A stretch of 64,000 bases of DNA from Hyphomonadaceae bacterium (GTDB lineage: Bacteria > Pseudomonadota > Alphaproteobacteria > Caulobacterales > Aquidulcibacteraceae). The notes under the pieces were generated by a model, which ran no database searches, was not told the origin of the DNA, and was given only the letters and a program-made list of their open reading frames with translations. Location: NCBI GenBank assembly GCA_016791365.1, contig JAEUMT010000036.1:1-64000 (forward strand). Reading direction: 5' to 3'. Each line of letters starts with the position of its first letter. The first letter of the stretch is position 1. Shown here piece after piece: positions 6,613 through 63,014 of this stretch. The translations under genes and the position numbers were made by a program.

Positions 6613-6734
6613 CCCGCGGTGTGGCCTGTGATCCAGAGCCCGCGAAAGACTAGGCGGCGGAGCGGAGCCGATCGAGGTCGGCGCGCAACATCAGCTTGGC
6701 GCTCGTTCCGTGGTTGAGTTCGGACTCGATGATG
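6613..6734. repeat. 122-bp direct repeat, copy 1 (copy of kinase gene 3' end)
   Basis: Positions 6613-6734 match 8171-8292 in the same orientation with two mismatches. The source is clearly the 8.2 kb copy, which holds the last 84 bases of the histidine kinase gene plus 37 bases after its stop. Here the piece is fused to a fragment of a membrane-protein gene and encodes nothing complete. Confidence 0.93.
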
Positions 6735-8170: not shown

Positions 8171-8292
8171 CCCGCGGCGTGGCCTGTGATCCAGAGTCCG
8201 CGAAAGACTAGGCGGCGGAGCGGAGCCGATCGAGGTCGGCGCGCAACATCAGCTTGGCGCTCGTTCCGTGGTTGAGTTCGGACTCGATGATG
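8171..8292. repeat. 122-bp direct repeat, copy 2 (parent copy)
   Basis: Parent of the 6613-6734 copy. It spans the last 85 bases of the histidine kinase gene and 37 bases downstream. The two copies bracket about 1.4 kb containing one intact gene (7003-7962) and remnants. No transposase or terminal inverted repeats accompany them. Confidence 0.93.
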
Positions 8293-12194: not shown

Positions 12195-12197
12195 AAT

Positions 12198-12318
12198 CCC
12201 CCCCCGCAAGCGGGGGCGGTGGCGAGCGTGAGCGAGCCGGAGGGGGAAAGTCCGTCAGCCGTCGCGCTGCGCCCCCTCAGTCAGCTTCGCTGACAGCTCC
12301 CCCGTAAACGGGGGAGCA
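12198..12318. repeat. Bipartite palindromic repeat (family A), intergenic copy
   Basis: Complete two-armed copy between convergent genes. The left arm has CCCCCGCAAGCGGGGG followed by an inner hairpin near GGCGAGCGTGAGCGAGCC. The right arm reads CCCCCTCAGTCAGC...GCTGACAGCTCCCCC and ends CCCCCGTAAACGGGGGAGCA, nearly identical to the right arms at 41.8 and 43.25 kb. Unlike those copies, it lies outside genes. It may also act as a bidirectional terminator. Confidence 0.85.
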
Positions 12319-12319
12319 A

Positions 12320-15740: not shown

Positions 15741-15865
15741 CCCATCCCCGGATGCGAGCGAAGCGAGCAGTCCGGGGCCCATAATCCCAACTGCCTAGCG
15801 CTTACATTCCGACAAACGTGTCTATGGGTCCCGGGCTCGATGCTGCGCATCGCCCCGGGAATGGG
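15741..15865. repeat. Dispersed palindromic repeat, family C
   Basis: Starts CCCATCCCCGG and ends CCGGGAATGGG, so the outer ends pair. Inside are GCGAGCGAAGCGAGC, GGGTCCCGGG and GATGCTGCGCATC. A related element lies at 62938-63014. It separates the convergent genes truA and dapE. Confidence 0.8.
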
Positions 15866-15871
15866 TGGAAG

Positions 15872-41698: not shown

Positions 41699-41886
41699 TG
41701 CGCCGGCGCAGCACTTTTTCTTCCCCCGTGAACGGGGGAAGTGTCATTGGCGCAGCCAATGACGATGGGGGCGCGACCGCGCAAACGTTCGACGACGTGG
41801 CGCACCGCCCCCTCAGTCATCACGCTACGCGTGCTGACAGCTCCCCCGTAAACGGGGGAGCAAAACGCGTGGCCGGAGACGCCTGA
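41698..41886 (+). other. Repeat-derived mini-ORF bridging E1-alpha and E1-beta
   Basis: An open frame of 62 codons. Its ATG overlaps the E1-alpha stop and its TGA (41884-41886) overlaps the E1-beta start, so ribosomes could travel from one gene to the other. Most of it is the family A repeat (41721-41862), translated as FSSPVNGGSVIGAANDDGGA and later RADSSPVNGGAKR. The frame equals that in the E2 and DnaX copies. It is probably not a functional protein; its openness may preserve coupling. Confidence 0.45.
41721..41862. repeat. Bipartite palindromic repeat (family A), between E1 genes
   Basis: Left arm: CCCCCGTGAACGGGGG, then inner hairpin GTCATTGGCGCAGCCAATGAC, then GGGGGCGC. Right arm: CCCCCTCAGTCA, inner ACGCTACGCGT, GCTGACAGCTCCCCCG and CGGGGGAGCA. 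The order of parts equals the 43.2 kb copy. The inner hairpin differs in sequence but keeps pairing, which points to selection on structure. Confidence 0.88.
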
Positions 41887-42900: not shown

Positions 42901-44367
42901 TTGGGCCAGTTCGTTTTCAAACTCCCTGACGTGGGCGAAGGCACCGCCGAAGCCGAGATCGTCGCTTGGCACGTGCGCGTGGGCGACGTCGTCAAGGAAG
43001 ACGCCCCGCTCGTCGATGTGATGACGGACAAAGCGACGGTGGAGATGACATCTCCCGTCGCCGGCAGGATCGTGTCGCTGAACGGCGAACCGGGCGATAT
43101 GGCCCCGGTCGGCGGGCCGATCGTGGTGTTCGAAACCGAAGCTGACGAAGGCGTTTCCTCCCCCGCGAGCGGGGGAGGTGGCGCGAGCAACGCTCGCGAC
43201 GGAGGGGGCGCAACGGCGCAGCCTTCTAACGTTAGCGCCTCGCCTGCCCCCTCAGTCAGCTCCGCTGACAGCTCCCCCGCGAACGGGGGAGCAAAAGCGC
43301 CTGCGCCGAAGCCAAAGATCAAAGCGCCGGCCGGCGCCACGTGGTCGGAAGATCAAGTGCAAGCCGCCATGCAAGGCGCAGCGCCAAAAGCCACCGCCGT
43401 GCCCGCCGCCGCGATGCCAACAAGTGCCGCACCGAAGGCGCAAGCTGTGGCGAAGCCCGCGGCGCGCGACGCTTCAGTTCGCGAGTGGTCACAAGCGCAA
43501 GCTTCGCCCGCAGTGCGCGCTCGGGCGCAGAAGCTCGGGCTTGATCTCGGCCAGGTGCGCGGCACCGGCCCTGATGGCCGCATCACGCATGAAGACTTGG
43601 ATGCTGTGCTCGTCCCCGCTGTAGGCGGCTCACGCCGTGGCGCGGGTTCAGCGCTCGCGACCAAGAACGGCATCGAGCCGGTCAAAGTCATCGGCTTGCG
43701 TCGCAAGATCGCGGAGAAGATGCAGGACGCCAAGCGCCGCATCCCGCACTTCGCCTATGTCGAAGAAGCCGATCTCACCGAGCTTGAAGAACTCCGCGCG
43801 CATTTGAACGCCACCAAGCGCAACGATCAGCCGAAGCTCACCATGCTCCCGTTCCTGATGCGCGCTTTGGTGCTGGCGCTGCCGGACTTCCCGCAGATCA
43901 ACGCCCGCTACGATGACGAGCAGGGCGTCGTCTATCGCCACGAGAACGTCGACATCGGCATCGCCACCCAAACCGATAACGGCCTGATCGTCCCCGTCGT
44001 GCGCCACGTCGAGGCGCGCGATGTCTGGGATAGCGCTCTCGAAGTCTCGCGCTTGGCCGCCGCCGTGCGTAACAACAGCGCCGGCAAGGACGAACTCTCG
44101 GGCTCGACCATCACCATCACTTCGCTCGGCGCCCTTGGCGGCATCGTGACGACGCCGGTGATCAATCACCCCGAAGTGGCGATCATCGGGGTGAACAAGC
44201 TGGTCGAACGCCCAGTGGTGAAGAACGGCCAGATCGTCGTCCGCAAGATGATGAACCTCAGCTCGTCCTTCGATCACCGTGTGGTCGATGGCTATGACGC
44301 AGCAGCGTTCATTCAGCGGGTGAAGGGCTTGCTGGAACATCCCGCCGCGCTGTTCATCGAGCGCTGA
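42901..44367 (+). CDS. bkdB: Dihydrolipoyl acyltransferase E2 of branched-chain complex, with repeat insert
   Basis: A 488-residue E2 subunit starting from TTG with GGAG seven bases upstream. Lipoyl domain: residues 1-82 with lipoyl Lys44 in VMTDKATVEMTSP. Then a linker of which residues 86-131 are a translated palindromic repeat (SSPASGGGGASNARDGGGAT, later ADSSPANGGAKAP). The E1/E3-binding domain is at about 201-235 (ASPAVRARAQKLGLDLGQV), and the catalytic domain from about 255 to the end contains SFDHRVVDGYDAAAFI with the active-site His and Asp. The insert extends an already flexible Ala/Pro linker. No lpd (E3) gene follows. Confidence 0.95.
   Translation: MGQFVFKLPDVGEGTAEAEIVAWHVRVGDVVKEDAPLVDVMTDKATVEMTSPVAGRIVSLNGEPGDMAPVGGPIVVFETEADEGVSSPASGGGGASNARDGGGATAQPSNVSASPAPSVSSADSSPANGGAKAPAPKPKIKAPAGATWSEDQVQAAMQGAAPKATAVPAAAMPTSAAPKAQAVAKPAARDASVREWSQAQASPAVRARAQKLGLDLGQVRGTGPDGRITHEDLDAVLVPAVGGSRRGAGSALATKNGIEPVKVIGLRRKIAEKMQDAKRRIPHFAYVEEADLTELEELRAHLNATKRNDQPKLTMLPFLMRALVLALPDFPQINARYDDEQGVVYRHENVDIGIATQTDNGLIVPVVRHVEARDVWDSALEVSRLAAAVRNNSAGKDELSGSTITITSLGALGGIVTTPVINHPEVAIIGVNKLVERPVVKNGQIVVRKMMNLSSSFDHRVVDGYDAAAFIQRVKGLLEHPAALFIER
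43157..43293. repeat. Bipartite palindromic repeat (family A) inside the E2 gene
   Basis: A full two-armed copy in the coding sequence. Left arm: CTCCCCCGCGAGCGGGGGAG, then GCGCGAGCAACGCTCGCGAC, then GGAGGGGGCGC; right arm: CCCCCTCAGTCAGCTCCGCTG and CTCCCCCGCGAACGGGGGAG. Left and right arms are inverted relative to each other. The insert preserves the reading frame on both sides and falls in a linker where it should be tolerated. Confidence 0.93.
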
Positions 44368-50469: not shown

Positions 50470-50527
50470 CGTCCGGCGCGGAAGCATTGGGAAGCGCTCC
50501 GCCCAGCAGGCAGAGCGCGCTCAGGCC

Positions 50528-50551
50528 GCCTTCGACAGGCTCAGGCTGACG
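50528..50551. repeat. Dispersed GCCTTCGACAGGCTC-type repeat (family D), single copy
   Basis: The sequence GCCTTCGACAGGCTCAGG followed by CTGACG occurs between terC and rluB, and again at 54184-54208, with its reverse complement at 54127-54150. This short element is common in alphaproteobacterial intergenic regions. Confidence 0.75.
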
Positions 50552-50576
50552 CTTGCTGGTCACCGCTCTCGTGACG

Positions 50577-54126: not shown

Positions 54127-54208
54127 CACCCTGAGCTTGTCGAAGGGCGGCGCCACGCACAATTGTCGGACGCGAACTCACGCCGCCTTCGACAGGCTCA
54201 GGCTGACG
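54127..54208. repeat. Family D repeats in inverted pair
   Basis: CACCCTGAGCTTGTCGAAGG at 54127 faces GCCTTCGACAGGCTCAGGCT at 54184, forming a long imperfect inverted repeat between the convergent cheY-like and M28 genes. Likely a bidirectional transcription stop or simply a dispersed element. Confidence 0.75.
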
Positions 54209-54258
54209 CTGGTGGATGGCCGTCCTGGCGGCAAGCGCGCTCTGCGCAGCGTCGGAAT

Positions 54259-62932: not shown

Positions 62933-62937
62933 CATCA

Positions 62938-63014
62938 CCCATTCCCGGGGCGAGGCGGAGCCGAGAGCCCGGGACCCGGCTCGCACCCCGGCCTTCGCCG
63001 GGGTCGCGTCCGGG
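62938..63014. repeat. Dispersed palindromic repeat, family C (second copy)
   Basis: CCCATTCCCGGGG, then CCCGGGACCCGG, and CCCCGGCCTTCGCCGGGG, related to 15741-15865. It sits between the HTH gene and the TauE/SafE gene stops. Hairpins could terminate both transcripts. Confidence 0.75.

Follow-up and report, generated by a model that had tools for sequence, protein, structure and literature searches.

The window, the whole stretch of 64,000 nucleotides analysed here, carries an intact gene for the E2 subunit of a branched-chain 2-oxoacid dehydrogenase (Table 1), in whose product Pfam models place the lipoyl, E3-binding and catalytic domains at residues 6–76, 200–233 and 259–485, respectively. 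Between the first two of these domains lies an insert of 138 nt, or 46 codons, which encodes the peptide SSPASGGG...DSSPANGGA. In a preliminary description of this DNA, the insert had been read as a complete repeat of a palindromic family, family A, occupying residues 86–131 in frame in the linker that follows the lipoyl domain. Both points are borne out, the position by the 46 codons at these residues and by the Pfam domain limits, the completeness by a layout of five hairpins on one strand: terminal hairpin, inner hairpin, central stem, inner hairpin and terminal hairpin. The coordinates proposed there, 43157..43293, capture the element itself, although the start was set one base late (the true start is 43156). 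Folding of the element yields z-scores of −7.3 as DNA and −6.3 as RNA, and none of 200 shuffled sequences folds as well.

Table 1. Family A elements in the window and the parts of the copy that interrupts the E2 gene
Feature	Position	Strand	Remarks
Branched-chain 2-oxoacid dehydrogenase E2 gene	42901..44364	+	Open frame, TTG start, 488 aa, intact
Family A palindromic element, E2 residues 86–131	43156..43293	+	In frame, sense orientation
Left terminal hairpin CCTCCCCCGCGAGCGGGGGAGG	43157..43178	+	Fold, hairpin pattern
Left inner hairpin CGCGAGCAACGCTCGCG	43182..43198	+	Sequence and length differ among copies
Central stem GAGGGGGC (43202–43209) / GCCCCCTC (43246–43253)	43202..43253	+	Middle variable
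Right inner hairpin GTCAGCTCCGCTGAC	43255..43269	+	Fold, covariation
Right terminal hairpin GCTCCCCCGCGAACGGGGGAGC	43271..43292	+	Fold, hairpin pattern
Two-ended family A copy between E1-alpha and E1-beta, same operon as E2	41718..41863	+	Second copy
Two-ended family A copy outside the operon	12196..12319	+	Model/pattern match
One-ended family A piece near the left contig end	66..127	-	BLAST match

Aligned copies of family A display a fixed polarity, with the left end running TCCTCCCCCG..CGGGGGAGGT and the right end GACAGCTCCCCCG..CGGGGGAGCA. The alignment, on which covariation was also measured, comprised 19 hand-picked two-ended copies from the source genome; the irregular copy at the start of contig C38 was omitted and that of C20 was never included. 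In this set, the covariation score for local hairpins was 0.092 vs 0.052 in shuffled alignments and was reached by none of 500 shuffles, the count of pairs with both partners changed was reached by 6 of 500 and further pair types showed no excess (200 of 500 reached the observed value), counts that should not be taken as probabilities, because the copies are related and this inflates the scores. Terminal inverted repeats are present in the 19 copies, with 18 terminal pairs and 93% of the cells paired. RNAalifold prefers to pair one end of the element with the other and covariation favours the local hairpins more; both arrangements are possible, the end-to-end one on the weaker evidence.

The status of the element as a repeat rests on the full element and on its genome-wide count, because the loose hairpin pattern (up to three mismatches) is near chance within the window, with 9 matches vs 6.15 expected and 16 of 100 shuffles reaching that number. 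In the source genome, CTCCCCCGNNNNCGGGGGAG occurs with at most two mismatches at 53 places and its reversed control at none, and BLAST finds at least 34 matches to the E2 element (40 of 71 candidates scored), some places being counted on both strands. Similarity by chance, arising from low complexity in a GC-rich linker of Ala and Pro, would agree with the high GC content and with the near-chance number of loose patterns, but it is refuted by the full-element matches, the control counts and the plain linkers of relatives described below, and we give it virtually no credence. At the gathering threshold of Rfam, the window yields tRNA and SRP RNA only. It also contains a direct repeat of 122 bp (6613–6734 and 8171–8292; 98% identical, 1558 bp apart), an inverted pair with a CCCGGG core (15826–15867 and 62936–62977; 88% complementary) that looks like another dispersed repeat family, and a 39-bp repeat containing CCTTCGACAGGCTCAGGCTGACG (50515–50553 and 54172–54210), which we take to resemble a CGTC-tagged REP. 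Elsewhere in the assembly, six contigs (C20, C25, C28, C38, C44 and C51) have a family A hairpin no more than about 200 bp from one end, so that the assembly may break at family A.

A covariance model (E up to 0.001) matches family A in 28 out of 30 genomes of the genus, with 0 (G004 and G015) to 70 matches each, the true numbers being lower because both strands of a palindrome are often counted. By DNA similarity, with up to 14 candidates scored per genome, the family is detected in at least 27 of these 30 genomes, in at least 4 of 7 others of the family and in at least 16 of 24 others of the order; outside the genus, among the matches listed, it is mostly the right half of the element that is covered. 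A strict 47-nt pattern of the right half is found in only one out of 385 genomes of the class, the source genome itself, which shows only that close copies are rare, because two of the four other members of the order in this sample have looser DNA matches. The best named relatives are metagenome assemblies labelled Hyphomonadaceae, Caulobacteraceae, Caulobacterales or wider, and the host is probably free-living. Plasmid and phage collections returned one weak match each, over about 30% of the query.

As the preliminary description had proposed, the E2 proteins of related genomes were compared. Of the 28 linkers read, 17 are without any element, including that of the closest relative, G004, whose E2 is 95% identical over residues 165–488 and whose 93%-complete assembly gives no match to the family A model. 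A full element is present in seven linkers (the source genome, G000, as well as G022, G005, G018, G014, G008 and G012), G020 retains a remnant consisting of a single terminal hairpin, G013 and G011 contain other palindromes and G023 has a decayed other repeat, judged by eye. The linker is thus a site for family A, as had been claimed, but other palindromic families also occupy it in other species. The seven full copies are identical in orientation and frame, are 37–48 codons long and fold with z-scores of −3.9 to −6.2; the 17 plain linkers, five of which contain a hairpin with arms of at least 6, range from +0.9 to −1.9, and the values for G023, G013, G020 and G011 are −3.7, −3.0, −1.7 and −1.4, respectively. 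In the linker alignment, the plain linkers of the closest species share a Pro-rich stretch of about 30 residues that is absent from the element-bearing E2, which argues that the insertion went with loss of older linker sequence. The earlier view of the insert as added linker length therefore holds for the in-frame insertion but not for pure addition.

On a tree built from E2 (linker removed) and E1-beta, 8 of whose 24 inner branches have good support, presence of the element in E2 requires eight changes for eight carriers (seven full, one remnant) among 27 species. All eight carriers fall among the ten species with at least 30 model matches (8/0 against 2/17 for the species lacking the insert; Fisher p = 2e-5, uncorrected for kinship and with a cut-off chosen after the counts had been seen), and an independent-pairs test of the same association on this weakly supported tree is not significant (5 pairs, median p 0.125). 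A single ancient insertion into E2, followed by vertical descent, by many losses or overwriting events and by gene conversion from local copies as the origin of the present differences, would explain why the seven full copies agree in position, orientation and frame and why those of G000 and G022 are 82% alike. However, the carriers are scattered, each beside non-carriers (with weak tree support), and the E2 copies differ in subfamily, by reading. Moreover, in six of the seven the best match is a copy from outside E2 (the seventh is a tie), although many more such copies entered the comparison, and the sister species G018 and G023 have different palindromes in the E2 linker (G023 by eye). We regard an ancient origin as unlikely; the E2 copy would most simply have been gained after the split from the closest relatives, replacing the older Pro-rich linker.

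Family A is also found in frame in other genes. We collected 112 two-ended elements from 29 loci of the source genome, 80 chosen stretches and 17 other loci; these are high-scoring picks, not a random sample, and include two overlapping pairs (L026 and L281). Most of the copies examined lie outside any detectable coding frame. A coding frame spans 24 of the 112, and 22 were retained as in frame inside genes after two antisense candidates with weak coding scores (L273 and L090) had been dropped. Seventeen of the 22 sit in proteins with a family-model match or E2 orthology, namely, E2 (three copies), UvrC (two), UbiG, acyl-CoA ligase, MutL, PdhB, ThiC, PutA, ligase-associated helicase, PriA, LeuRS, chromate transporter, MnmA and DnaX, with L228 and L277 each falling short of the curated cut-off of the best family (442 vs 476 and 844.7 vs 850 bits). 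Of the remaining five, four belong to a single unnamed protein in four species and the fifth to a different unnamed protein; L288 was retained despite having no family match. Orthologues that lack the insert occur in relatives, as checked for E2, UbiG, ThiC, UvrC and PdhB. For example, the UbiG insert is absent in all 13 relatives with a UbiG match (14 were searched, and G024 gave no match), the loop having been read in 12 of them.

The preference for particular frames, which the preliminary description had made a test of its interpretation, is evident among these copies, and so is a preference for one strand. Twenty of the 22 are in sense orientation and two are antisense (p = 1e-4), or 20 of 24 with the two dropped antisense rows restored (p = 0.0015); the two antisense entries, L279 and L286, are nearly symmetric, and the strand of several rows differed under an earlier, less strict orientation scoring. 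As judged by eye, the upstream end is read in the SSP frame in 12 copies, in the PPP frame in ten (L228 was placed here) and in the third frame in none, a bias that is partly forced because the right inner hairpin has a TGA. In the 85 other oriented copies, open frames are nearly equally frequent on both strands (means of 1.14 and 1.09). The encoded peptides are rich in Ser, Pro, Gly and Ala and read SSPxxGGG...DSSPxxGGA or PPPxAGEV...SSPxxGGA. A possible reason for the strand bias is that, read in sense, the peptide makes a flexible linker that does no harm.

Several of the loops that hold family A in one species hold other palindromes in another. The ThiC loop (RENMRR..RDGESFGA) was read in 11 out of 13 genomes: G005 and G006 have family A there, G008 has a variant, G014 a GGAGCGCGGGCG-type repeat and G022 a shorter piece of this type (z only −0.9), and in G029, G018, G020, G023 and G017 the loop comprises only 6–8 residues. 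The ThiC of the source genome (contig C39, L322) carries another repeat, GGACCGCCGGCGCC..GGCGCCGGCGGTCC, as an inverted pair in frame; its type resembles that which flanks two RAYT genes of the same genome. The UvrC loop, read in 25 out of 30 genomes, carries family A or a CCCTCCCC-type palindrome in 18 (17 by pattern, G027 by its hairpin) and is short or plain in the other seven; the PdhB lipoyl linker, read at 23 of 28 loci, carries one or the other in 12 by pattern, the two labels overlapping because the families look alike. In PdhB, folding does not separate the groups cleanly: the pattern-matching linkers of G022 (+0.8), G018 (−1.2) and G008 (−1.8) have weak folds, and those of G013 (−6.6) and G014 (−3.1), which match no pattern, have good ones. 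The source genome itself has in-frame CCCTCCCC-type palindromes in UvrC (L386; peptide PSPLVGEGWEGGRSD...RPPPPAPAPQG) and PdhB (L367; peptide SPPPRGAGAGGGGRSD...RPPTPTPPPQG). In the UvrC of G022 (L393), a second palindrome, GTCATCCCGGATCAAGTCCGGGATGAC, is nested in frame within a family A insert. The spacer between E1-alpha and E1-beta holds family A in the source genome and, by reading, other palindromes in G004 and G022; it is absent in G029, G024, G027 and G019, and in 26 of 27 species the stretch read upstream of E1-beta is free of family A hairpins.

Because ThiC, UvrC, PdhB and E2 hold different palindromic families across species, these loops have the appearance of landing pads common to several families. 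It is conceivable, if somewhat doubtful, that the genus maintains them as a fixed set of recurrent docking sites in housekeeping proteins, at which unrelated palindromic families supplant each other in frame, and that the loops change mainly through palindromic elements rather than through point mutation. That several families recur in the same loops, together with the sense-strand bias and the strong folding retained in the E2 copies, could also suggest that the inserts are kept because they are useful, as linkers, as mRNA hairpins slowing translation between domains or as regulatory structures. However, relatives manage without them and the survivorship of harmless insertions would yield the same pattern, and we consider retention for a function to be as improbable as the single ancient insertion. 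The tolerance of the inserts as neutral passengers is the more probable reading.

The flanks of the elements are A/T-rich, and no target-site duplication was detected in 107 elements, the best of many offset and length tests giving z 2.8. No cognate transposase for family A was found among the Y1 matches and loci of the genus. Since neither was found, mobility is deduced from distribution alone. Hairpin ends, the lack of target duplication and a dimer-like layout would be expected if a resident RAYT (Y1) transposase moved family A as its REP, and repeats of the RAYT-flanking type do occur in the same loops. Nevertheless, of the 34 Y1 matches that the genus contains, 30 RAYT loci were examined and family A flanks none of them (at L347, the distance between a family A hairpin and the Y1 match exceeds 1 kb), whereas 17 of the 30 (among L046–L048 and L328–L354) have one identical hairpin type other than family A on both sides, the types differing between loci and species. 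Furthermore, there is no PF01797 match in G018, G020 and G023, which are 92–99% complete, or in the incomplete G028, despite 34–64 model matches in these genomes. A resident RAYT was accordingly rejected as the mover, and the view of family A as its REP is very unlikely.

We therefore conclude with considerable confidence that family A is a mobile element of one Hyphomonadaceae genus, self-folding and non-autonomous, and that the E2 copy is one of its in-frame insertions into a linker. An element of about 100–150 bp would spread within the genomes of this genus, copied in trans, as we infer, by an enzyme that acts on folded single-stranded hairpin ends and leaves no target duplication. A copy inside a gene would persist if the site of insertion is a flexible loop or linker and if no stop codon arises in that orientation and frame; judging by its sequence, it would then be translated as a Ser/Pro/Gly/Ala-rich, probably disordered segment, and selection would remove harmful insertions.

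The preliminary description had likened the insert to the Rickettsia palindromic elements (RPE), as a protein-compatible repeat of another alphaproteobacterial order, and this interpretation is largely supported, neither of the two outcomes that it had named as refuting having been observed; the host indeed belongs to Caulobacterales. RPE are reported to be, like family A, palindromic, dispersed and about 100–150 bp long and to occur in frame in conserved genes as well as in intergenic regions (PMC2229807, PMC10969869). The two are set side by side by description, not by sequence, and family A differs in being a GC-rich, two-ended hairpin composite, in the use of one loop by several families across species and in its host, which belongs to Caulobacterales and, as far as records tell, is not obligately intracellular. 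WPE-like palindromes of Wolbachia are reported in frame in addA, addB and priA (PMC4224334), a likeness again of description and not of sequence, with an endosymbiont as host; in-frame cases are also reported for Coxiella MITEs (PMC5896051). Of the MITE criteria, terminal inverted repeats are present in family A and a target-site duplication was not found in 107 elements.

Family A resembles the CcrM-associated intergenic repeats (CIR) of Caulobacter and relatives, which are about 110 bp long with two arms and a linker. CIR carry GANTC and are reported as not intragenic (PMC2229807), whereas family A occurs inside genes and has GANTC in 4 of 107 copies only; membership in CIR was rejected on the latter ground. 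The GTAG/CGTC REPs are described as tagged stems of 20–40 bp, often dimers, that are found within ORFs of several bacteria, many of them repair- or tRNA-related genes (Di Nocera et al. 2013, PMC3733652). By contrast, family A is a composite of 100–150 bp with no tag established: CGTC or its complement is found in 67 of 107 copies and GTAG or its complement in 21, any position being counted. The same source reports CGTC families in all alphaproteobacterial orders and different REPs at about one site of Xanthomonas recB genes, a small-scale precedent for one site used by different families; its text never mentions Caulobacter (PMC3733652). RPE, WPE and intragenic REPs appear to be the same kind of element as family A. 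A search of the open-access literature by sequence strings yielded one unrelated paper, and among the titles and abstracts listed on repeats of Caulobacter, Hyphomonadaceae or Caulobacterales none describes this repeat; within this literature, the family, the group of its hosts and the recurrent occupation of loops by different families are new.

In-frame palindromic insertions were first described in Rickettsia and later, as short REPs, in other bacteria. Here, a single genus displays empty, filled, decayed and differently filled loops side by side in conserved genes of many species. Such states allow tests of how the elements reach their sites, why one strand is favoured and whether the peptides are neutral.
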